Virus record (IMG/VR): IMGVR_UViG_3300042525_000524
Span: 1-45,522 of that record
Origin: a virus
DNA length: 45,522 nt
Direction: 5' to 3' (one strand)
The notes below the pieces were generated by a model. That model saw nothing but the letters and a program-made list of their open reading frames with translations, made no database searches and was not told the origin of the DNA. Positions 6,239 to 45,522 of the stretch are shown here, piece by piece; positions within the stretch are counted from its first letter, which is position 1; each line of letters opens with the position of its first letter. The position numbers and the translations under genes are program-made.

Positions 6239-8144
6239 GTTATGTGTGGAAGTCTGCCGCGAAATGATGCGGCCGCGGATTCTTCAATCCGCTGGCGACT
6301 GGCTTCGCACGTCGTTCTATGACATCACCGGCCGGGCATTCGACGAATCGATGGTGCCGTGGGTTACCGCTCCGCAAGGCCCATGCTGGGCTTACGATTC
6401 AATCCAGTTCAGAACAATCTGGCTACAATGGGCGGCTCGAATGTTCAAAACCAACTTCGGGCTGGCAATGCTCATGCGGTCAATGGACCAGCGGCCCGAA
6501 GAGACGATGTTCGCGACGCCGGACGAAACCAACTGTAAGAGCGTGTTTGGCCGTCTATGGCAGATGCTGGAGAATTGCCCACGACTGCGGGATCAAGTGC
6601 CGATCCGCCAGCGGCAATCGAAGACGCGAATTCAGCTTCGCCGGTCGGTCTGTCATGGTGCCTGGCCTCGGGGTAAGTCTCGACTGGCGGACAAGTCGAT
6701 CCGCGTCGCACACGGAAACGAAATTGACAAATGGGTGATGGAATCGTCGAGCACTGAAGGTGACCCGCAGGAGCGTTTCCGCAAACGCGGGGCGGAGTAC
6801 CCGGACAGAAAATTCGTGATGGAGTCAACGCCGTCTGTTCGCGGCAAGTCGAACGTGGAAACCGGGCTGCTGGGATCAACACACCACCGCTACCACGTCC
6901 CCTGCCCGCACTGTTACAAATTCCAGGCGATCGAATTTGGCGACGGCAGCAGCCCTGGCGGCATTTTCTTTGAGAAGCTCCCTTCCGGGCAGTCCGATAA
7001 GGAACTGGCCCGCAAAACGGCTCACTATGTCTGCCGCTTCTGTGAGGGTCGCATCGACGATATGCACCGGCCGGAAATGATGATGCGCGGCGTGTGGGTT
7101 CCGGCTGGCTGCGAGGTAGATCACGAACGGGCAATGGAAGCCCGCGACCTCCCGCCAGATGATATGTCGTGGTTGCGTGGTGAGCCTCGCAATTGGGGGC
7201 AGGATTACGGCTGCCAGATCAGCGTTTTCTATGCCCTATTTCATGGCTGGGGCTCGATTGCGGCAGACTTCGTTTCCAAATGCAAAAACCCGGCAAAGCT
7301 CCGCCAGTGGATCAACGAAGACAAAGGCGAAACGTGGGAACCGCGGCGCACGAAATCAACGCCGGAGCGAGTCGGCGAGCGGCTGAAAACGCAGTTGCCC
7401 CGCGGCATCGTGCCAGTCTGGGGGCGGCTGCTCACTGTGACCATCGACCAGCAGGCGGCAGAGGGTGGCTACCGGCTCTGGGTTGTCATAGCTCATGGCG
7501 CGGACTGGCGGTCTCATGTTGTAGATTACGGCCTCACGCAGACGCTCGATGAAATTTGGCAGGCGACAATCTGCAGGGCTTACGAGCACGAGGACGGTGG
7601 CAACTCCATGCGGCCACATGCTGCAGCGGCAGACTCCGGCTGGGATACCAAGGCTACATACGATTTCGCCAACCGTCACGATGGCTTTCTTGCTATTAAA
7701 GGCGCCAACCATGACCTCGGCGGCAAGCCTTACCGGCTGTCTTCGGTGCAGGAAGGCGACCACGCAGGGCAGACGCTGCTGACGGTGGCCACAGACTTCT
7801 GGGAGACTGACCTGCAAGCCCGTTTGGACGACCGAACGCCAGTAGATCCCGAAAGCCTGAGCATCTGCGCCGGGGCGGATCGAGACATGGAATTCCTCGA
7901 ACAACTCTGCAACGCCACGCTGGGCGACAAAGTGGACACGCGAGGAAACGCCAAACTGCTCTGGGTGAAGAAAAACGAATCGGCCCCAAACGACTTTCGT
8001 GACGCGATTCGCTACGGGCTGGCCTTGGCGGTATGCTACGCGGAAGAAAACGGCGGGTTTCCAGCACGATCAGAGATTAAGACTCAAAGGACCGTAGTCA
8101 ATGCAGGCGAGACACGAAGCGACGGGAGGCCCTGGATTGAATAA
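6231..8144 (+). CDS. terL: Terminase large subunit, GpA-like ATPase/nuclease
   Basis: 637 residues, GTG start at 6231 with GGAGGAG at 6217-6223. It follows the lambda GpA pattern: an N-terminal ATPase part with EIDKW, EGDPQERFRKR and KFVMESTP, a double zinc-binding site (CPHC at 225-228 and CRFC at 268-271), and a C-terminal nuclease part with DSGWDTKATYDF and an ending FRDAIRYGLALAV. It should cut the concatemer and drive DNA into the prohead with the Nu1-like subunit. Its length matches lambda GpA (641). The next gene starts inside its 3' end. Confidence 0.9.
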   Translation: MSRLCVEVCREMMRPRILQSAGDWLRTSFYDITGRAFDESMVPWVTAPQGPCWAYDSIQFRTIWLQWAARMFKTNFGLAMLMRSMDQRPEETMFATPDETNCKSVFGRLWQMLENCPRLRDQVPIRQRQSKTRIQLRRSVCHGAWPRGKSRLADKSIRVAHGNEIDKWVMESSSTEGDPQERFRKRGAEYPDRKFVMESTPSVRGKSNVETGLLGSTHHRYHVPCPHCYKFQAIEFGDGSSPGGIFFEKLPSGQSDKELARKTAHYVCRFCEGRIDDMHRPEMMMRGVWVPAGCEVDHERAMEARDLPPDDMSWLRGEPRNWGQDYGCQISVFYALFHGWGSIAADFVSKCKNPAKLRQWINEDKGETWEPRRTKSTPERVGERLKTQLPRGIVPVWGRLLTVTIDQQAAEGGYRLWVVIAHGADWRSHVVDYGLTQTLDEIWQATICRAYEHEDGGNSMRPHAAAADSGWDTKATYDFANRHDGFLAIKGANHDLGGKPYRLSSVQEGDHAGQTLLTVATDFWETDLQARLDDRTPVDPESLSICAGADRDMEFLEQLCNATLGDKVDTRGNAKLLWVKKNESAPNDFRDAIRYGLALAVCYAEENGGFPARSEIKTQRTVVNAGETRSDGRPWIE

Positions 8145-10393: not shown

Positions 10394-12581
10394 GCGATCA
10401 CAGGCACTTGCAAGACCGATGGCAGATTCCGGTTTTCGCTCGCTTGAAGTCCGCGCAAAGTCATTCCGCGAGGATGAAAGATCTGTCGAGGCAGTCATTA
10501 GCACTGAGGCCCCGGTGCTTATGCCGGACTGGTCTCGCGGCGAGATGGTTCCGGAGGTTTTGCTGGCCCGTGGTGCAGAGTTTCCGAAGAGTCGGCAGAT
10601 CCCGTTTCTCGACTCGCACAACCGATCCAGCATCAAAGACCAGCTGGGCAGCGCCCGAAACATCACTGTAGGCGATGGCAACATCACCGCGACGCTGATG
10701 TTCTCTAAAGCCGCTCAGGCTGAAGACGCAATGGCAGGCGTTCGCGAGGGACACATCACGGACGTGAGTGTGGGCTATGACGTCCTGAAGCGAACATACA
10801 TCGCCGAAGGGCAGACCAAAACAATTTCCGGCCGTGAATTTACTGGCCCGGTAAACGTCGTGACGAAGTGGCGGCTGCGGGAAGTCTCGTTGACTCCCAT
10901 CGGTGCAGACGCTCAGGCAAAGCTGCGAGGGCTCGACCTGGCAGCGGTCAGGTTTTCGCAAGAGGAATTTAAGATGAATCAGGAACTCCGAGCTTTGCTG
11001 GTGTCGCGTGGCATGCCAGCCGACTTTTCCGATGAGCAGGCCCAGCGGTGGCTTGTGGACAACGCCGACAAACTGGCAACGCTTCAGCAGCCGCCTCCGG
11101 AGCCAGCCCGTGCGGCTCCTGTGCAGCAGGCTGCTCCAGCCCTCACCGCTGACGATGTCGCTCGCATGATCGCTGACGGCACCCGCAAGGCGCTCGAGGC
11201 ACAGCATCAGGCCCGCACGGCGTTTGAGGCTGAAGCCCGTGGCCTCTGCGAACTGGCCGACATGGCTGACGAGTTTGACGCCGTTCGTAACCTTGGTGAC
11301 GTGGCAGCCGTCCGCGAACACCTGAAGAAGACGAAGGCCGAACGCGCCGCCTCAATTCCATTCGGCAGCACGATCAGTATCGGCAAGACCGGACAGGAAC
11401 GCCTCAGCGGTGACCTTCGTGCAGCAATGATCGTGAACGCTGTCCGCTTTGCGGCCAACGGCGACCACAGCAAGATTGAAAAGCACACGACCGACGCCGA
11501 ACGCAAAGCGGCTGCCCCGTTCACTCACGCGACCCTCATGGACATGGCAACCGAGTACGTGCGTGGCATGGGTGTTTCGACGTTCGGCCTGTCCCGCGAA
11601 AAGATCGCTCAGGCGGCAATGTTTGGCCCCGAAAAGGCTGGTCTGTCCGGCCGTTCGGTAACCCCTTACCACACCACGGGCAACTTTGCCAATTTGACGC
11701 TCGACGCGATCAATAAGTCCATGATGATTGGTTACACCGAAGTTCCGGCAACGTGGCGCGGCCCAATGCGTCAGGGGCTGAGTGTGGCCGACTTTAAGAC
11801 GATTCACCGACTGCGGCACGGCGGCATTCCAAACCTGCCTGCCTGGAACGACGTCGATCGGCCGAATCGCGTCTCGTTTGCAGACGCCAAAGAATCCTAT
11901 GCCGTCGAATGCTACAGCGAGGGCATCGACTTCAGTTACAAGCTGATCGTCAATGACGACATGGACGCCCTCACCCGCGTTCCGCTGGGCCTCGGTGATG
12001 CTGCAGCCCGCACGGTCAACGCTGTGGCGTGGTCGCAGATTACGAGCAACCCGCTGATGAGTGACAGCGTGGCTCTGTTCTCCGACGTGAGCGGCAACCG
12101 CAAGCAAAAGAACCTGGAAACCGGCTCGGTTTCCAACTACACCACCGCCATCAACCTGCTGACGCAGAACATGATGGTAATGCGTGGCGAGAACACGCCA
12201 GAGGGCGGCGCAGGACCGGACATCCTCGGGCTCATGCCAGCATACATCTGCGTACCCGCTGCTCTGCGTGCAACTATCCTTACGCTCCTGCAGTCCACCG
12301 CAGACCCGTACGCCTCGCAAAGCGGCGTGGCAAACATCAACCGCAATCTGCAGTTGATTGTTGAGCCACTGCTGGACGCCAACAGTGTTACCGCCTGGTA
12401 TTTGTTCGCCGAACCCCGTCGAATTGACACCGTCGAGGTGACCTTCTTGCAGGGTCAGGAGACGCCGCAGATTCGCACGGTGCCAGACGAGCACAATCTT
12501 TCCATTACCTATTACGTGCTGCAGACGTTCGGGGCAAAAGCCCTGAATCATCGCGGCATTCAGAAGCACGCCGGAGCCTGA
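10386..12581 (+). CDS. Prohead protease - scaffold - major capsid fusion
   Basis: 731 residues from ATG 10386 (AGAGGA at 10372-10377). Residues about 15-190 are an HK97-type (U35) prohead protease: FLDSH with His78 and DVSVGY with Ser128, the expected catalytic pair. Residues about 197-325 are helical, Ala/Gln/Glu-rich and scaffold-like (delta domain). Residues about 330-731 look like an HK97-fold capsid protein (ATWRGPMRQGLSVADFKTIHR, SYKLIVNDDMDAL, ending FGAKALNHRGIQ). An in-frame ATG at 10974 with AGAGGA at 10961-10966 could make scaffold-capsid alone, giving many capsid copies per protease copy. Confidence 0.85.
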   Translation: MSKRSQALARPMADSGFRSLEVRAKSFREDERSVEAVISTEAPVLMPDWSRGEMVPEVLLARGAEFPKSRQIPFLDSHNRSSIKDQLGSARNITVGDGNITATLMFSKAAQAEDAMAGVREGHITDVSVGYDVLKRTYIAEGQTKTISGREFTGPVNVVTKWRLREVSLTPIGADAQAKLRGLDLAAVRFSQEEFKMNQELRALLVSRGMPADFSDEQAQRWLVDNADKLATLQQPPPEPARAAPVQQAAPALTADDVARMIADGTRKALEAQHQARTAFEAEARGLCELADMADEFDAVRNLGDVAAVREHLKKTKAERAASIPFGSTISIGKTGQERLSGDLRAAMIVNAVRFAANGDHSKIEKHTTDAERKAAAPFTHATLMDMATEYVRGMGVSTFGLSREKIAQAAMFGPEKAGLSGRSVTPYHTTGNFANLTLDAINKSMMIGYTEVPATWRGPMRQGLSVADFKTIHRLRHGGIPNLPAWNDVDRPNRVSFADAKESYAVECYSEGIDFSYKLIVNDDMDALTRVPLGLGDAAARTVNAVAWSQITSNPLMSDSVALFSDVSGNRKQKNLETGSVSNYTTAINLLTQNMMVMRGENTPEGGAGPDILGLMPAYICVPAALRATILTLLQSTADPYASQSGVANINRNLQLIVEPLLDANSVTAWYLFAEPRRIDTVEVTFLQGQETPQIRTVPDEHNLSITYYVLQTFGAKALNHRGIQKHAGA
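10961..10976 (+). promoter_or_regulatory. Internal ribosome site and in-frame start within the protease/capsid gene
   Basis: AGAGGA at 10961-10966 followed after 7 bases by ATG at 10974, codon 197 of the long frame. It falls exactly at the end of the protease domain, as expected for nested translation of the scaffold-capsid part. Confidence 0.55.
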
Positions 12582-23924: not shown

Positions 23925-24115
23925 GGCTGGTGATGGCGGTCATTGTGATGGCGGTTGCAATCTCCATCCTGATCGACAGCCCCCGTCGCGAGTTGGCCGC
24001 ACAGCTTGAGCGCGACTGGCTGGAGTACCGGCAGCACGTTGGCCGACCCTGTGTTTCCGCGACTTCTAAAAATCTTCCAGATTCTTTTCAGCTTACGCTG
24101 GACACAAAACGATAA
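23921..24115 (+). CDS. Small single-span membrane peptide
   Basis: 64 residues from GTG 23921, which overlaps the methyltransferase stop by 4 bases; an in-frame ATG at 23909 is an alternative. Residues 3-20 (LVMAVIVMAVAISILID) form a membrane helix, followed by an amphipathic charged part RRELAAQLERDWLEYRQH. The size and plan fit a holin-like or inner-spanin-like protein, but its end runs into the promoter of the next gene, so the annotation is tentative. Confidence 0.4.
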   Translation: MRLVMAVIVMAVAISILIDSPRRELAAQLERDWLEYRQHVGRPCVSATSKNLPDSFQLTLDTKR

Positions 24116-24792: not shown

Positions 24793-24829
24793 AATCTTCC
24801 AAAATCTCAAAATTCTTTCCCGTTTACAC

Positions 24830-24910
24830 TGGACACAAACGGGAAAACAAACGATACTACTGCCATGCCGAACGCAAGGTGCGAGAGGCGAACACAAGCA
24901 AGGGGCTGAG
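24830..24910 (+). promoter_or_regulatory. Repeat promoter-leader, copy 2
   Basis: TGGACA (24830-24835), 17-base spacer, GATACT (24853-24858), GCAAGGTGC (24874-24882), AGCAAGGGGCTGAG (24897-24910), then ATG 24913. Confidence 0.75.
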
Positions 24911-25230: not shown

Positions 25231-25260
25231 CCCCGGGAGACCGGCCCGGGGTTTTCTTTC
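25231..25260 (+). terminator. Rho-independent terminator, family 1 copy 2
   Basis: CCCCGGG (25231-25237), loop AGACCGG, CCCGGGG (25245-25251), then TTTTCTTTCC. Perfect 7-bp stem. Confidence 0.8.
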
Positions 25261-25285
25261 CTTATTCTTTCCTGGAATCTGGATC

Positions 25286-25633: not shown

Positions 25634-25663
25634 CCCCGGGAGACCGGCCCGGGGTTTTCTTCC
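25634..25663 (+). terminator. Rho-independent terminator, family 1 copy 3
   Basis: CCCCGGG (25634-25640), loop AGACCGG, CCCGGGG (25648-25654), then TTTTCTTCC; the same 21 bases as copy 2. Confidence 0.8.
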
Positions 25664-25685
25664 ACAATTTTTTGGAGTGATGGCG

Positions 25686-26805: not shown

Positions 26806-27219
26806 ATGAAGTGGATTGAACCAAAAAACAAATGCGGCGGTCGTAAGATTTCTGGCCCAGATGCCCCGGCCGTTGGTGTGCGAATTTATCTGCATCACAA
26901 GGATGGGCAGCGCGTTTGCTTCCTGTTGAACTCGGCGTTCATTAAGGCGTCGCGGCTGCAGCCGGGCGACAGGCTGGCAATTGGGATTGACGAAGTCCGT
27001 GGCGTGATTGGGCTGAAGCGCAGCGACCGTGGAAATGCAATCAGTGGAAATGGTTGGTCGGTTACTCGGGAAGGCAAACCAACAAAGGGTAATCACGCGA
27101 CACCATATGTCAGCTTTGGTTGCAAGGCCTATCCGGGAGTCGACAAATGGGCAGAGCAGCGAGTCGGGAAATGGGTTGTCATGCACGATAAACAGACGCA
27201 CTGGGAATCAATTGAATGA
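26806..27219 (+). CDS. Unknown protein upstream of the first csrA-like gene
   Basis: 137 residues from ATG 26806 (GGAG at 26796-26799). A beta-rich N-terminal half (VGVRIYLHHKDGQRVCFLLNSAFIKASRLQPGDRLAIGIDEVRGVIGLKR) resembles small barrel or AbrB/SpoVT-like DNA-binding proteins in its LQPGD turn, but this is weak; the end has WSVTREGKP and WVVMHDKQTHW. The stop overlaps the csrA-like start by 4 bases, so the two are co-translated. The leader carries two GCAAGGTGC copies. Confidence 0.55.
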   Translation: MKWIEPKNKCGGRKISGPDAPAVGVRIYLHHKDGQRVCFLLNSAFIKASRLQPGDRLAIGIDEVRGVIGLKRSDRGNAISGNGWSVTREGKPTKGNHATPYVSFGCKAYPGVDKWAEQRVGKWVVMHDKQTHWESIE

Positions 27220-27407
27220 GACTAACCCGCAAGCCCGGCGAATCCGTGGAACTGTTCCGCGGCTCCGAGACCGTGGCAAAAATCACAATTCGCGAAATTA
27301 GTCAGGGGCGTGTGTCAATCGACATCGTCGCCCCGCTGACCGTGGATATAGTCCGCTCCGAATTGATTAACAGGGAGACAAGCAAAGATGCAATTGAAGT
27401 CGATTAA
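27216..27407 (+). CDS. csrA: CsrA-like RNA-binding regulator, copy A
   Basis: 63 residues. It aligns along the full CsrA length: start RLTRKPGESVEL (CsrA LTRRVGETLMI), strands TVAKITIREISQGRVSIDIVAP, then VDIVRSELINRE where the Arg matches CsrA Arg44 that contacts RNA GGA. CsrA dimers bind GGA in leader hairpins to block or help translation and stabilise mRNA. A phage copy could redirect host or phage mRNAs; the repeated leaders and structured RNAs nearby are possible targets. It overlaps genes on both sides. Confidence 0.8.
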   Translation: MRLTRKPGESVELFRGSETVAKITIREISQGRVSIDIVAPLTVDIVRSELINRETSKDAIEVD

Positions 27408-27585: not shown

Positions 27586-27904
27586 GCGTGGGCTACCGCG
27601 ACTGACAGAATCGCAGTTCACATCGCAGGTGGTCCGGCTGGCTATTCTTTACGGCTGGCAGGTGTGTCACTTTCGGCCAGCAAAAACTGCGAAAGGCTGG
27701 CGGACTGCAATACAGGGGCACGCAGGGGCGCCCGACATTATCGCAGCCCGCAATGGCCGCGTGGTTGGGGCTGAACTAAAGGTCGGCAACAACAAGCCCA
27801 CCGAAGATCAGTTGCTCTGGCTCAACCACTGGGGTAAAGATGCCTATCTGTGGTATCCGTCAGACTGGCAACAAATCGAGGACGTTTTTTCAGGGAGAGC
27901 ATGA
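27578..27904 (+). CDS. VRR-NUC nuclease (resolvase-type)
   Basis: 108 residues, ATG 27578. The VRR-NUC core is complete: TESQFTSQVVRLAILYGWQVCHF, GHAGAPDIIAARNGRVVGAELKVGNNKPTEDQLLWLNHW, with the PD-(D/E)xK residues Asp in GAPD, Glu and Lys in AELK. Stand-alone phage VRR-NUC proteins are thought to act on branched DNA such as Holliday junctions, which would resolve replication or recombination products before packaging. It lies between two csrA-like genes, overlapping the second by 4 bases. Confidence 0.85.
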   Translation: MAKRGLPRLTESQFTSQVVRLAILYGWQVCHFRPAKTAKGWRTAIQGHAGAPDIIAARNGRVVGAELKVGNNKPTEDQLLWLNHWGKDAYLWYPSDWQQIEDVFSGRA

Positions 27905-28089
27905 TGGCTCTGGCGCTCAAGCGCAAGGCCGGTGAGGCAATCAGGATCGGCGAAAACATCGTCGTGACAATCGGCGAAACGCGTGGCAGGTACACCACGG
28001 TGCTTGTGGATGCACCGCGGGAAATTTCAATTCAACGAATCGAAGGAGAAAAGGGCAATGCGAGTAAAGCTCGAAGAGTTCGGAAGTGA
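27901..28089 (+). CDS. csrA: CsrA-like RNA-binding regulator, copy B
   Basis: 62 residues from ATG 27901. Full-length CsrA pattern: LALKRKAGEAIRIGENIVVTIGETRGRYTTVLVDAP, then REISIQRIEGEK where Arg fits Arg44 and Glu fits Glu46. The C-terminal tail KASKARRVRK-type is more basic than usual. It differs clearly from copy A, so the pair is not a recent duplication; two different CsrA-like proteins could form heterodimers or serve different targets. It overlaps the VRR-NUC gene by 4 bases and the next gene starts inside its end. Confidence 0.8.
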   Translation: MMALALKRKAGEAIRIGENIVVTIGETRGRYTTVLVDAPREISIQRIEGEKGNASKARRVRK

Positions 28090-35135: not shown

Positions 35136-35435
35136 ATGAAATCCACACGTCTGACAATCGACGCCAGCAAATTTCGCAACGCAGTCTCCGACCTGATCGG
35201 ATACGTTCAGCCGCTCGACGCTGCCGACATCCGCAATCCTCCGATCGTGGAAATCTGCGGCGACCGCGTTGAGATTTGCGACGGCTACCACCGGATTGCC
35301 GCACTGATCGCAGGTGGTGCTGAGTCAATCGAGTGCGTGACCTGTGACGTTCCGCGGTGGCTGTCGTACGCTGCTGACAACGGCCAGCAGACAATGCACC
35401 GGTTCGCAATTGGCCGCATTTACGCGGGTCTCTGA
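35136..35435 (+). CDS. Small ParB-like (DGYHR) domain protein
   Basis: 99 residues, ATG 35136. The centre PPIVEICGDRVEICDGYHRIAALIAGGAESIECVTCDVP is the core of the ParB/sulfiredoxin fold (DGYHR in place of GHGR). Such single-domain proteins occur in phages and may bind nucleotides or DNA. It is distinct from the larger ParB-domain protein at 3321. It is a single-gene unit with its own promoter-leader. Confidence 0.6.
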   Translation: MKSTRLTIDASKFRNAVSDLIGYVQPLDAADIRNPPIVEICGDRVEICDGYHRIAALIAGGAESIECVTCDVPRWLSYAADNGQQTMHRFAIGRIYAGL

Positions 35436-35464
35436 AAATTTTCCAAAAATAGTCCAGCTTACGC

Positions 35465-35548
35465 TGGACACAAAACGATACAGAATCTAGACTTCACCAA
35501 CCGGGACGCAAGGTGCGACACCGGACAAACAATCAGCAAGGGGCTAAG
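35465..35548 (+). promoter_or_regulatory. Repeat promoter-leader, copy 5
   Basis: TGGACA (35465-35470), 17-base spacer, TAGACT (35488-35493), GCAAGGTGC (35508-35516), AGCAAGGGGCTAAG (35535-35548), then ATG 35552. 26 bases at 35455-35480 are identical to copy 1. Confidence 0.8.
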
Positions 35549-39835: not shown

Positions 39836-40062
39836 CCCCCGAACAAATCCAATTTACCCGCGAACTGCTCGCATCACTACCAGAGGATGAGCGACCAATC
39901 CTTGCCCGTGCAGCCGCGGAGTTTATCCGCCTGCACGATGCTTTGGAACGTCTCTACAGAATGACTCCTGCAGACGTGCATCGCGAGGCGGATTTCGTCG
40001 GTTGGCGTGCGGCGTTTCTGGCTGACACCGTGGAGCAGATCGTTCGGAGGTTTTTGGAATGA
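39832..40062 (+). CDS. Small helical protein preceding the DNA methylase
   Basis: 76 residues, ATG 39832. All-helical (PEQIQFTRELLASLPEDERPILARAAAEFIRLHDALERLYR, FLADTVEQIVRRFLE). Overlaps the methylase start by 4 bases, so co-translation with it is likely; a regulatory or partner role is only a guess. Confidence 0.55.
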   Translation: MTPEQIQFTRELLASLPEDERPILARAAAEFIRLHDALERLYRMTPADVHREADFVGWRAAFLADTVEQIVRRFLE

Positions 40063-40685
40063 CCCCATATCACGAATCCGACGGCGTTGTGTTGTATCAC
40101 GGCGACTGCCGAGAAATCCTGCCGCAACTGGGGCGGTTTGATTTGCTGCTGACTGATCCGCCGTATGGGCTGGGGGATAAATGGAACGGCGGAGGCGGCG
40201 GAGTGAAAAGCTCCTGGGCTTTCAGTGCGGCAGACGCAAAGGCCTGGGATATGAGCACAAGTGATGCGCTACCCTCTGCCGTCAGTATAGCGGATGACGC
40301 TATTGTTTGGGGTGGCAATTACTACTCACTCCCGCCAATGCGGTGTTGGCTGATTTGGGACAAAAAACAGCCGGACACATGGAGCACAGGGCAAGCTGAA
40401 ATGGCATGGACAACACTGGATAAGCCAATTCGCGTCTACAGGTTGGCTCAGTGTGAAGCGCATGCTGAAATGGAAAGCAAAATGCACCCAACACAAAAGC
40501 CATTGTCGCTAATGCGATGGTGCTTGAAGTGGACTGACGCCCAAACCATCATCGACCCATTCGCCGGATCCGGCACGACCCTGTTGGCAGCCAAACTCGA
40601 AGGCCGCAAAGCCGTCGGAATCGAGATCAGTGAGGAGTACTGTGAGATCGCGGCGAATCGACTGAGGCAGCGGCTGTTGTTCTGA
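40059..40685 (+). CDS. DNA N6-adenine or N4-cytosine methyltransferase
   Basis: 208 residues, ATG 40059. Motif IV DPPYG at 33-37, motif near HPTQKP at 143-148, motif I DPFAGSGTT at 166-174, and EISEEYCEIAANRL at the end. The order (IV before I) is that of beta-class amino-methyltransferases. It probably protects phage DNA from restriction or marks it; no partner nuclease is seen nearby, so it is a solitary methylase. It ends 7 bases before the -35 of the promoter at 40692. Confidence 0.85.
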   Translation: MTPYHESDGVVLYHGDCREILPQLGRFDLLLTDPPYGLGDKWNGGGGGVKSSWAFSAADAKAWDMSTSDALPSAVSIADDAIVWGGNYYSLPPMRCWLIWDKKQPDTWSTGQAEMAWTTLDKPIRVYRLAQCEAHAEMESKMHPTQKPLSLMRWCLKWTDAQTIIDPFAGSGTTLLAAKLEGRKAVGIEISEEYCEIAANRLRQRLLF

Positions 40686-41098: not shown

Positions 41099-41314
41099 AT
41101 GACACAAAAACAAGACCTACCCGACTACGTCACGATCTACCGCACAGCACAGGAGATGTTGCAAAGCGCGAACGCGTGGCACCCCGACGCAAGGCTGATG
41201 GGCAACGCCAGAGCCGGAGACATTGCGGCGGTGTGCGCGTTTCTGATTCGGTCCATCGAGTCGTTTCATCCAATGAGCGACGCAGGCAGCGGCGGTTGTG
41301 CTGATTCCTCTTGA
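41099..41314 (+). CDS. Small helical protein ending in a promoter
   Basis: 71 residues from ATG 41099 (GGAGG at 41089-41093). Helical (YVTIYRTAQEMLQSANAW, NARAGDIAAVCAFLIRSIESF), ending GGCADSS-stop. The last codons and stop form the -35 box of the next promoter, exactly as in the gene ending at 26009. Function unknown. Confidence 0.6.
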   Translation: MTQKQDLPDYVTIYRTAQEMLQSANAWHPDARLMGNARAGDIAAVCAFLIRSIESFHPMSDAGSGGCADSS

Positions 41315-41359: not shown

Positions 41360-41602
41360 ATGGGCGATTTACCAGCAGGCATGACGTGGGCGCAGGCAAT
41401 CGGCGGGCTGATGATTCTGCTCGGAATCGGCGGCGCCGTGATCATCTTGGCTGAGTTGCTGTGCCGTATGGTGGACCTGCCGCGACGCAAGCCGGACGCA
41501 GACGCGAGCGAATCCGAGTCAGACGCTGAGTTCCGGCGGATCTGTGAAGGAGTCGAGGCTGAAGCCCGAGAGGCAGCAAAGCGGTGCGAGGTGCGGCGAT
41601 GA
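41360..41602 (+). CDS. Membrane protein with charged tail, possible inner spanin
   Basis: 80 residues from ATG 41360 (GGAGG at 41346-41350). One N-terminal membrane helix (about 12-35, AIGGLMILLGIGGAVIILAELL) and an acidic/basic helical tail (DADASESESDAEFRRICEGVEAEAREAAKRCEVRR). This plan resembles inner spanins, and the next gene, overlapping by 4 bases, encodes a short Pro-rich membrane-anchored protein as an outer spanin would be; no lipobox is seen, so the call is weak. Confidence 0.45.
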   Translation: MGDLPAGMTWAQAIGGLMILLGIGGAVIILAELLCRMVDLPRRKPDADASESESDAEFRRICEGVEAEAREAAKRCEVRR

Positions 41603-42300: not shown

Positions 42301-42987
42301 GTGAAAACGCTTCTGCTGTTGCTGCTGCTGTTGCAAGATGGCCCGATCGTCTTTCCCGATCTGACGCGGCCAGTGCCACCACCACCGCCACCAGTACGGC
42401 CGGAGCGGGTGGACTCGTTCTCAGTCGAGGATATCTACCTGATCGAAAGCGACCTTCCACTGCATGTGCTCGCGTCGCCCTCAGGTGTTGTCGAGGTCGA
42501 GCAGGAGCAGCAGGGGACAGTCATCCGAGGCAAATTCGCGGGCGGCAATGGATTGCTGGAGCGGCGAAAAATCAGCCGCGCGAACGGCTACCTTGTCACC
42601 GCTGCAGCCCCCGGGCAAGTGGAACTAATCGTCCTTCCGGCAGCAGCGACCGAAACTCTTGAAGTCCGACGGGTGGCCCTGCGTGTGGTGGGGCGCTCAG
42701 ATCCATCCCCGGAGCCTGAGCGACCGCAAGACGCTGTCGCCCAGGCTTTTCGTCAATATGAAGCGGCATGGCGACAGGCCCAGGCAGACCTGGCCGACCG
42801 GCTCGATTCTGGGCTGGTCACCAGTGAAAACGCCGCGGCGGATTGGTTCGCGACCGCGAACGCGGAGGCGCGAAAACAGGCATTCACTCCGTTGCTGCTA
42901 TCCGAACAGGGAGCATTCGGCGGCATTAAATGGACCGCAGTGGGGCACGCGCAGTTCATTCGGAGGTACGCCACAAATGCCAAGTGA
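42301..42987 (+). CDS. Exported protein of unknown function
   Basis: 228 residues, GTG 42301. The first 12 residues (KTLLLLLLLLQ) are a short hydrophobic export signal, followed by a Pro-rich stretch. A beta region (YLIESDLPLHVLASPSGVVEVEQ, GQVELIVLPAAATETLEVRRVALRVVG) is followed by a long helix pair (QAFRQYEAAWRQAQADLADRLD) and an end with FTPLLLSEQGAFGGIKWTAVGHAQFIRRYA. It overlaps the protease gene by 11 bases, so it may be its chaperone, inhibitor or partner. Confidence 0.55.
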   Translation: MKTLLLLLLLLQDGPIVFPDLTRPVPPPPPPVRPERVDSFSVEDIYLIESDLPLHVLASPSGVVEVEQEQQGTVIRGKFAGGNGLLERRKISRANGYLVTAAAPGQVELIVLPAAATETLEVRRVALRVVGRSDPSPEPERPQDAVAQAFRQYEAAWRQAQADLADRLDSGLVTSENAAADWFATANAEARKQAFTPLLLSEQGAFGGIKWTAVGHAQFIRRYATNAK

Positions 42988-43825
42988 GCTGCTGACACCG
43001 ACCGCAGATGAAATAGCCTGGGCAGGGCAGAGTCAGACCGTGCGAGTCTCTGCGGGCGACTTCGAGGATTACGAGCGGATCTTAAAAGACCCGCGAAACA
43101 GTCCGCTAAGTGTAATGCAGGTTGAACGACAACAGCGGAACGACTGCCAGGGTAACGCAACTGCGAATTGCCTGGAATGTATGTCGTGGGTGGTGAGTGG
43201 CAGGCGAGTTATGCCAGTGCTCTCGGAGACCTACGCGTACAACGCGTCGGAATATCTCATGTCGCCGCAATACGTCGGGCGTGACAGTGGAACATCGATG
43301 CACAGCGGTGTTCGGCTGCTGACCGAGGGCATTCCGAGGCTTGGGGTTAAGCCTGGAGTCGCTGCAGAATCGAACTGGCCTTACGCTCAATACTATCGCA
43401 GTGCCAGCCAGTTTGAGGCGGCAGCGCGTAGAGTTGAGATCGCCCCTTCGCACGTAACCGAACATGGCCCACTACCTTCATTCGAGGGGATGTTGGCGGC
43501 TGTTGCTGCGGGTGGTACGGGACACATCGGCACATTCTGGTCAGTCCGCTGGAGCAACCTAAACGGGCGGCGACTGATGGACACGCTACCGACCGGCGGC
43601 GGTGGCCACGCCACCGAAATTATCTGGGCTGAGCAGGTTCAATCGCGTTGGTATCTCTGCGTGTGGAATTCGCACGGTGACGGGTATTACTACATGTCAC
43701 AGCGATGCTATGAGCAGCTTTTGGCCCGACGCGGTGAGCCGTTCGGTTGCTTCGTGCTGATGCCAGATCGGGCTCAAGAGCGTTACTATGATCGACAGTC
43801 ACAGGGAGGGGGTTATTTCGCATGA
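42977..43825 (+). CDS. Papain-like cysteine peptidase
   Basis: 282 residues from ATG 42977 (GGAGG at 42962-42966). A papain-type triad is visible: Cys57 in ERQQRNDCQGNATAN (with Gln52/53 as oxyanion helper), His211 in GGGGHATEIIW, and Asn231 in YLCVWNSHGDGYYYMS, which mirrors papain NSWGxxWG. Spacing suits a C1-like fold. It may cut host envelope proteins during lysis or entry; peptidoglycan hydrolysis by a related fold is an alternative. No export signal is seen on this protein, so it needs a holin or its partner to reach the envelope. Overlaps both neighbours. Confidence 0.65.
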   Translation: MPSELLTPTADEIAWAGQSQTVRVSAGDFEDYERILKDPRNSPLSVMQVERQQRNDCQGNATANCLECMSWVVSGRRVMPVLSETYAYNASEYLMSPQYVGRDSGTSMHSGVRLLTEGIPRLGVKPGVAAESNWPYAQYYRSASQFEAAARRVEIAPSHVTEHGPLPSFEGMLAAVAAGGTGHIGTFWSVRWSNLNGRRLMDTLPTGGGGHATEIIWAEQVQSRWYLCVWNSHGDGYYYMSQRCYEQLLARRGEPFGCFVLMPDRAQERYYDRQSQGGGYFA

Positions 43826-44229
43826 AATGGCACATTGGAATGGCGATGGCGGCGCTGCTGGCACTGCCGATGATCGATGAAAAACCACCTGCTGAGTCTG
43901 CAGACCTGCAGTTATTGATCAAGCGGCTGGAGTCACTCGAAGCACGAGTGGCAGCGCTGGAAGCCGCAAAGCCAGAGCCACCCAAAGAACAGGCGGCAAA
44001 GACTAAGCCCGTGCTGTACGTGCACAGTGAGACGTGGTGCGGACCATGCCAGGTCTTCAGGGCTGACGTGGCGGCAGCCGGTGAACTTCCTGTTGAGATC
44101 GTCTACCAGCGGTTTTCATCGTATGTCCCGGCTTTCAGGTGGACAGATGCAGCTGGAAAGACTATCACCCGCACAGGATACGCGAAGGGATCACTCGACA
44201 GTCTCCTAAGGGAGGTTGCTGAGAGGTAA
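43822..44229 (+). CDS. Exported thioredoxin-like protein
   Basis: 135 residues, ATG 43822. Residues 1-17 (KWHIGMAMAALLALP) are an export signal or anchor, 28-50 a short coiled coil (LQLLIKRLESLEARVAALEAA), and 62-135 a thioredoxin-like fold with the active site SETWCGPCQVFR (Cys73, Cys76), ADVAAAG, and a C-terminal GKTITRTGYAKGSLDSLLREV. A WCGPC site is reducing in thioredoxins. The place right after the protease suggests joint work on disulfide-bonded envelope proteins, or folding of the phage's Cys-rich proteins. Confidence 0.75.
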   Translation: MKWHIGMAMAALLALPMIDEKPPAESADLQLLIKRLESLEARVAALEAAKPEPPKEQAAKTKPVLYVHSETWCGPCQVFRADVAAAGELPVEIVYQRFSSYVPAFRWTDAAGKTITRTGYAKGSLDSLLREVAER

Positions 44230-44239
44230 TCTTCGCCCG

Positions 44240-44298
44240 CCTGGCTGGCGGCGAGCCTCCACCGCCACACCCTGCAGGGGCCAGCCAGGCACCTTTTT
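44240..44298 (+). terminator. Terminator after the thioredoxin-like gene
   Basis: CCTGGCTGGC (44240-44249) with GCCAGCCAGG (44280-44289), 10 perfect pairs with a 30-base loop, then CACC and T5. It would end the protease/thioredoxin transcript. Confidence 0.65.
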
Positions 44299-44323: not shown

Positions 44324-44527
44324 ATGACAGACACGCCAGACAACGACAGAGATTCGGAGATCGAGGGCAACCTCGGTAACAGTCGTTTTCGCGCGTCTGG
44401 TGATGCTGTTGAGCAGCTCCTGAAATACATCGGCCCGGCCTTAGTTTGGCCGGTAATCGCTTCAGCCGCGGCGATTGTGATAATTGCGGTCGGCTTTGTT
44501 CTTTCGTGGACGGTCTTTCAGCAATGA
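44324..44527 (+). CDS. Single-span membrane protein, possible holin
   Basis: 67 residues, ATG 44324. Acidic cytoplasmic start (TDTPDNDRDSEIEGN), then one helix about 42-63 (VWPVIASAAAIVIIAVGFVLSW). The size suits a class III holin or accessory. Stop overlaps the next start by 4 bases. Confidence 0.5.
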   Translation: MTDTPDNDRDSEIEGNLGNSRFRASGDAVEQLLKYIGPALVWPVIASAAAIVIIAVGFVLSWTVFQQ

Positions 44528-45142: not shown

Positions 45143-45522
45143 CACCAACTGAACTACTCACACTGATTGCCAGCGACACGCAAGCCGCTGCCTATTTTCA
45201 GCAGGGCAACGACGAAGCCTGTGCGGCTCGATGCACTGCAATTGCTGCACCAGTGAGGCAGCCGGTGCCTGCAGATCGAGTGCAGGAAATCGCCAGCCTG
45301 AATGGCATGTGGGGCATGTTGAAAATCGCTGCTCTCAATACGCAACTGAGCAATCCGCCACGGGGTGCAGCTGTTTCGTTCATTGACTGGATTGAAGCTG
45401 GACGGCCTTTGAATCCGGACAACGCAGCAGTGCAGCAGATGGCTGGCGTTCTGGTCAGTTACAGTCTTGCGACGGCAGAGCAGATCGCACAAATCAGCGA
45501 CGCGGCGAACACTCCGCAAGTG
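45139..45522 (+). CDS. 5' part of the gene that continues at window position 2
   Basis: 128 codons from ATG 45139, open to the window end. The first 34 residues (PTELLTLIASDTQAAAYFQQ and so on) are unique to this end; the next 94 are identical in protein sequence to residues encoded from position 2. With that part the protein would have about 148 residues. Confidence 0.65.
   Translation, partial: MTPTELLTLIASDTQAAAYFQQGNDEACAARCTAIAAPVRQPVPADRVQEIASLNGMWGMLKIAALNTQLSNPPRGAAVSFIDWIEAGRPLNPDNAAVQQMAGVLVSYSLATAEQIAQISDAANTPQV
45240..45522 (+). repeat. Terminal overlap with window positions 1-283
   Basis: Bases 45240-45522 match 1-283. The first 123 are identical; the remaining 160 have about 23 differences by hand count, all synonymous. 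It indicates circular or circularly permuted DNA assembled from at least two alleles, or a diverged tandem copy. Confidence 0.8.

Follow-up and report, generated by a model that had tools for sequence, protein, structure and literature searches.

Layout of the cassette

Positions 42301–44229 of the window (the whole stretch of DNA that was analysed, a single virus record of 45,522 bp) hold three overlapping genes, for an exported or anchored protein (F1), a papain-like cysteine peptidase (F2, the protease) and an exported thioredoxin-like protein (F3). The three genes belong to a run of genes for small membrane proteins, with the following features.

41360–41602, + strand: small protein, 80 aa, one hydrophobic segment; begins the membrane-protein run; among relatives present only in the closest, L001
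41599–41793, + strand: small protein, 64 aa, one N-terminal hydrophobic segment; likewise present only in L001
41848–42297, + strand: F4, 149 aa, one hydrophobic segment; candidate holin-equivalent
42301–42987, + strand: F1, exported or anchored protein, 228 aa; GTG start; hydrophobic N-terminus MKTLLLLLLLL
42977–43825, + strand: F2, papain-like (C1A fold) cysteine peptidase, 282 aa; ATG start; Q52/C57/H211/N231
43822–44229, + strand: F3, exported coiled-coil protein with a C-terminal minimal thioredoxin domain, 135 aa; WCGPC, cis-Pro 103
44239–44298, + strand: intrinsic-terminator-like hairpin and U-run (z = -3.65), closing the cassette
44324–44527, + strand: F5, 67 aa, one C-terminal hydrophobic segment; directly 3' of the trio in most relatives; possibly an additional lysis-membrane protein

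The overlap is 11 bp between F1 and the protease and 4 bp (ATGA) between the protease and F3; the overall span and the overlaps agree with the first-pass annotation, which had described an exported protein, a peptidase and a thioredoxin-like protein in three overlapping genes. The terminator that it had placed near 44240 is also found, as a stem at 44239–44290 followed by a U-run (-34.4 kcal/mol, z = -3.65). The promoter proposed at 41311 was rejected, as the scan gave sites at chance level and none at this position.

In the comparison with L001, the dN/dS ratios are 0.08–0.12 across the trio (dS 0.4–0.56), which indicates that all three genes are under purifying selection. Together with the invariant active-site residues described below, these ratios exclude that the trio is coding by chance.

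All called genes of the window are on the + strand. The trio region is preceded by a DNA methylase gene (40059–40685), one of the last early-type genes, and the trio itself sits directly before tail-fibre/LamG-type genes, in a run that continues across the contig ends to ParB, terminase, portal and the head protein. The latter is encoded by a single gene (10419–12581, phrog_4523, E 1.8e-111) comprising a head-maturation protease and the major head protein. A virion-processing role of F2 is unlikely, because the genome has this maturation protease of its own, fused to the major head protein.

A direct repeat of 283 bp is present at the termini (1–283 and 45240–45522). The two copies are 92% identical, with the first 123 nt exact, and differ mainly in steps of three, matching synonymous strain variation. 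Such a repeat with two strain variants means that the contig closes on itself, and the window is thus effectively a complete or nearly complete genome. Self-closing contigs with a diverged terminal repeat, like this one, may get classed as linear.

Fold and active site of the protease

The AlphaFold model of the protease (from 28 sequences) has a pLDDT of 91.6 and a pTM of 0.91 and shows the C1A papain fold. In Foldseek searches of the PDB, the model matches plant and animal papain-family enzymes with E 1e-8, probability 1.00 and target TM of 0.64–0.66. Residues Q52, C57, H211 and N231 occur unchanged in 28/28 proteases, in the order Q-C-H-N. In the model C57 begins a long helix (57–74), H211 begins a strand (210–221), and N231 follows directly after another strand (224–230), so the predicted placement of C57, H211 and N231 is that of papain. 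The catalytic Cys57 is the sole cysteine universal among the proteases, and H183 is an additional invariant residue of the family. The first-pass annotation had named the triad C57-H211-N231 in a papain-like peptidase and proposed structure prediction as the test; the confident model and the 28/28 invariance bear this out.

The fold was revealed by the structure and not by sequence searches. Searches of Pfam, PHROGs, NCBIfam and the PDB sequences detected no relative of the protease, no PF00112 match was found anywhere in the genome, and none of the 28 protease members has a relevant Pfam match. An hhalign comparison with papain gave a probability of 0.2%. Membership of MEROPS C1 by sequence was not recovered, as no family C1 profile matched; the protease shares the papain fold, yet it is not a sequence-detectable member of C1. 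Its likeness to the C1A papain family comprises the fold, the Q-C-H-N order and an N-S motif after the last catalytic strand. The differences, besides the missing sequence relationship, are the position of the glutamine (-5 in most members and not -6, although L044, with the textbook form NQGNWGSCQG, has it at -6), the lack of a long propeptide, and the invariant H183. Proteins of uncultured Caudovirales annotated as 'Peptidase C1A' (BFVD A0A6J5QDM8 and A0A6J7XQB9) have the same predicted fold (target-normalised TM 0.57–0.67) but are just 16–17% identical to F2. Weak structural matches were also obtained to the phage lysins ct3lF2 (annotated as an N-acetylmuramidase, E 7e-8) and LysA (E about 3e-3 to 2e-2).

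The protease lacks a signal peptide, and its N-terminal extension is short, with no classical long propeptide, as would be expected if the enzyme waits in the cytoplasm for a holin. Residues 64–72 (43166–43192), within the helix starting at the catalytic cysteine, read NCLECMSW in the window and NGEExRSW in nearly all relatives; the window phage alone differs here, and the 94% identical L001 also reads NGEExRSW.

The F3 and F1 partner proteins

The thioredoxin domain of F3 is minimal (about 75 aa), with the WCGPC motif (C73/C76) and cis-Pro P103. C73, P75, C76 and P103 are invariant in 13/13 F3 proteins, in agreement with the first-pass description of WCGPC in a signal-bearing thioredoxin-like protein, and the motif of the family is of the reducing type (WCGPC/WCAPC). 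F3 matches Pfam Thioredoxin_7 with E 7e-5 and 23.3 bits, below the gathering cut-off of 27, while its homologue in L041 matches Pfam Thioredoxin with 28.5 bits (cut-off 23.5), and the F3 family profile matches thioredoxins in the PDB (E 6e-5). The F3 proteins begin with a hydrophobic signal or anchor, after which comes a coiled-coil-like stretch. A lipobox is found in the F3-position proteins of L002, L022, L035, L041 and L113; the window F3 has none. F3 therefore resembles exported thioredoxin-like proteins (Thioredoxin_7 and the thioredoxin clan) in the CxxC motif, the cis-proline and the Pfam and PDB matches, but differs from them in its minimal, sub-gathering domain, fused to an exported or lipoprotein coiled coil and always found beside the protease.

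Some loci depart from this arrangement. A tandem second exported thioredoxin-like gene follows the protease in L012 (745–1128 and 1271–1705) and, in the same place, in L087. The trio of L051 (6841–9209) has broken frames and has lost the thioredoxin CxxC, and this contig is either decayed or error-rich. In L002 (10867–11478) and L113 (3014–3592) a lipoprotein with an uncharacterised small domain (RWNIEGNWNPTILETSAHLTSDHGI...) replaces the thioredoxin protein; its C-terminal CPxGxC/RRGLFG tail is partly common to the thioredoxin lipoproteins of L022 and L035.

The constant part of F1 is only its C-terminal helical domain (145–225 in the window), preceded by a signal or anchor; this domain has no sequence match in the PDB. 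Most loci have in addition an Ig-like domain (about residues 39–130), which is absent in L002, L022, L035, L041 and L113. The weak structural neighbours of the Ig-like domain in the PDB (E 2.5e-3 to 4e-2) are enriched in chagasin-type inhibitors of papain-family peptidases, with amebosin at rank 1 and EhICP2 and chagasin also present. These chagasin-type (I42) inhibitors rank among its best PDB matches, but the target TM is only 0.37–0.47, no sequence match to them was found, and the domain is missing in several relatives. We regard an inhibitor function of the Ig-like domain as no more than a lead and do not claim it.

Conservation and coupling of the genes

A first scan of viral contigs with the protease yielded 17 loci and a later one 41, with identities as low as 43%, and five more contigs came from the thioredoxin and holin searches. 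The order F1-protease-thioredoxin recurs in about 45 viral contigs. Profiles were run over 46 loci for the coupling counts, and as some contigs are near-copies, the counts are of loci and not of independent lineages. Wherever a locus extends far enough upstream, F1 lies ahead of the protease. The thioredoxin gene lies downstream of the protease in 41/42 loci with room for it, or 41/44 when L113 and L114 are counted; the gene pair seen at first in the window, for which a search of related phages had been proposed, thus recurs. Starting from the thioredoxin, the protease is directly upstream in 31/33 loci; in the remaining two, the contig of L105 stops short, and the second thioredoxin copy of L087 lies in between. 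All testable loci with the thioredoxin (32/32) also have the protease. L002, L113 and L114 keep F1 and the protease, with the thioredoxin domain replaced by another domain inside the coiled-coil lipoprotein. The thioredoxin is always accompanied by the protease and the protease sometimes lacks the thioredoxin, which makes the protease the core and the thioredoxin a strongly coupled, replaceable partner. The tree of the proteases, rooted at the midpoint and with some long branches, places the thioredoxin-less loci inside the thioredoxin-bearing set.

In 13 near-whole contigs, F1 and the protease are both present in 13/13 (a count informative for F1 only, since the contigs were selected by the protease) and the terminase and portal families in 9/13. 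The cassette stays while the terminase and portal families vary; it outlives the exchange of the head module, as lysis cassettes do. F4 lies directly upstream of F1 in most relatives and is absent exactly where another small membrane protein fills its slot, in some loci a member of Phage_holin_10. This replacement in the slot makes F4 the candidate holin-equivalent of the window. F4 and the first tail-side gene, used as queries, recovered close relatives only.

Holin synteny and the search for other lysis enzymes

A holin is the protein that opens the inner membrane when a phage bursts its host. In L022 a gene for 57 aa (7219–7389), two genes upstream of F1, matches PF23987 Phage_holin_10 with 63.7 bits (cut-off 27, E 1.6e-17), and L035 carries a homologue of it. 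In L113 and L114 a homologous holin (59% identical) overlaps F1, which in turn overlaps the protease. In the otherwise unrelated phage L115, a member of this holin family (40–44% identical) comes directly after a GH24 lysozyme (PDB lysozyme, E 1e-15), so the protease occupies the place of an ordinary endolysin. The window itself has small uncharacterised membrane proteins in this gene string, and none of them matches a holin family model. Just upstream of the Phage_holin_10 gene of L022 (6835–7140) lies a membrane protein with a CPIC motif and weak PHROG matches to families of unknown function.

No peptidoglycan hydrolase was detected among the window genes at Pfam/PHROG sensitivity, which agrees with the first-pass remark that no ordinary endolysin is visible elsewhere. 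None was found among 110 representative genes of seven relatives (proteins of up to 480 aa; all 21 matching families were inspected), and Amidase_2 was found in 0/19 records. An endolysin of an undescribed family, or one lying within a large virion protein (over 480 aa), may have escaped these searches.

The gene order makes a lysis function of the cassette likely. Of the two roles first proposed for it, lysis or entry, it is the lysis role that is now better supported than when proposed, by the holin synteny in the relatives. The cassette would work like an endolysin cassette, but without the peptidoglycan hydrolase domain by which an endolysin is recognised.

Proposed mechanism and alternative readings

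We consider that the trio probably forms the central part of a cassette for lysis, in which a papain-fold endopeptidase takes the place of the endolysin and the thioredoxin protein acts as a periplasmic accessory. The folds, motifs, synteny, conservation and lack of a detectable peptidoglycan hydrolase are observed; the lysis function, the order of events, the targets and the role of F1 are what we infer. A small membrane protein (F4 or another flanking one in the window, the Phage_holin_10 protein in some relatives) would act as the holin and release the signal-less endopeptidase from the cytoplasm. The peptidase would then cut peptide bonds of the host envelope and so take over what an endolysin usually does. 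F1, exported or anchored, and F3, exported or lipid-anchored, would be waiting in the periplasm; the conserved helical domain of F1 presumably lies outside the membrane, and its Ig-like domain may restrain the protease. The thioredoxin domain of F3 would most likely supply reducing power in the periplasm, either by keeping the catalytic Cys57 reduced in an oxidising compartment, as may be the case because Cys57 is the only universal cysteine of the protease, or by opening disulfides in the envelope target.

Within lysis, what the enzyme cuts separates the readings. It is possible, if tentative, that the papain-fold enzyme cuts the stem or cross-link peptides of peptidoglycan, as an endolysin by function with an unfamiliar sequence, and that the thioredoxin only keeps the catalytic thiol reduced. 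The protease shares its slot and its holin family with the GH24 lysozyme, the weak structural matches include the phage lysins ct3lF2 and LysA, and the universal Cys57 offers a target for a reductant; against this, the strongest structural matches are protein-cutting C1A peptidases, the oxyanion Gln and the Cys-His-Asn of endoproteases are present, and no NlpC/P60- or CHAP-type relatives are among the best matches listed. The two-step attack, in which the thioredoxin reduces the disulfide cross-links of a cysteine-rich protein envelope that the protease then digests, appears unlikely. It would account for a thioredoxin that never occurs without the protease (32/32 testable loci), is translationally coupled to it (ATGA), is exported or lipid-anchored, and has a reducing-type WCGPC/WCAPC with cis-Pro, but L002, L113 and L114, which keep F1 and the protease with no thioredoxin domain, argue against an obligatory two-step attack, and a planctomycete host is only a guess. 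We are equally doubtful of its fullest form, a proteolytic-reductive lysis without any peptidoglycan hydrolase, combining a holin-released papain-type endoprotease, an inhibitor-like anchored F1 and a periplasmic thioredoxin breaking the disulfides of a protein-based envelope.

Outside lysis, a tail-borne protease that opens a surface protein layer (S-layer-like) during infection would fit the position of the cassette directly before the LamG/tail-fibre-like genes. This entry or virion role is nevertheless quite improbable, as F1 and F3 have export or lipoprotein signals, unlike virion proteins, and their genes overlap in one string with a member of a curated holin family. Superinfection exclusion or envelope remodelling by anchored F1 and F3 and a regulatory protease, with no lysis, is the least probable of these readings and very unlikely: the membrane-anchored partners and the purifying selection on all three genes suit it, but the coupling to a holin family does not, nor does the fact that no other lysis enzyme was detected.

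Comparison with known lysis systems

Tailed phages are understood to lyse double-membrane hosts by the combined action of a holin, a peptidoglycan hydrolase and a spanin. The cassette resembles the holin-endolysin-spanin cassettes of tailed phages of Gram-negative hosts in its small membrane proteins (including PF23987 Phage_holin_10 in relatives), its single overlapping string, its signal-less hydrolase, and its coiled-coil protein, exported or a lipoprotein, at the place where a spanin usually lies. It differs from them in that the hydrolase is a papain-fold, C1A-like peptidase and not a muramidase, an amidase or an NlpC/P60-CHAP enzyme, the coiled-coil protein carries a thioredoxin domain, and a membrane-anchored F1 stands before the enzyme. 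In comparison with two-component spanins (an inner-membrane protein and an outer-membrane lipoprotein, with periplasmic coiled coils), F1 is anchored at its N-terminus and F3 is coiled-coil-like, with a lipobox in some relatives and none in the window. SAR endolysins such as P1 Lyz are activated by thiol-disulfide exchange. The likeness to them lies in the idea of periplasmic redox chemistry controlling a lytic enzyme, but the protease has no SAR segment and the thioredoxin is a separate gene. No paper on planctomycete phage endolysins, papain-type phage lysis or thioredoxin-bearing spanins was found among the papers searched.

Host and implications

No relatives were recovered from GTDB genomes, from isolate phages or from plasmids. 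The terminase and the Gp37/Gp68-family protein of the window match many unrelated hosts at <60% identity and are uninformative on the host. A planctomycete host is a guess. A 2009 paper still described the planctomycete envelope as a proteinaceous wall lacking peptidoglycan (PMC2754498). The argument from a proteinaceous planctomycete envelope is by now historical. Later work reported peptidoglycan in planctomycetes.

An uncultured phage family with no detectable wall-dissolving enzyme may thus burst its hosts by an unusual route. If this is true in a widespread phage family, either the papain fold was independently recruited as an endolysin or the load-bearing layer of the host is protein. 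The exported thioredoxin that accompanies the protease offers a definite starting point for studying the redox control of lysis, and the cassette makes the host question testable and can serve as a marker for annotating lysis in phages where none has been found.

Other features of the genome

Two CsrA-like genes are present at 27216–27407 and 27904–28089 (Pfam CsrA in 2 members, best E 3.8e-12), and the family of the gene at 27904 is also found in 7/13 related contigs. A 50-nt repeat with the core CAGCTTACGCTGGACACAAAACGATA occurs in three roughly intergenic copies (24065–24114, 24796–24845 and 35431–35480) and is a possible regulatory element. The sequence CCCCGGGAGACCGGCCCGGGG occurs twice (25231–25270 and 25634–25673), each copy followed by T-rich sequence, and these are likely repeated terminators.
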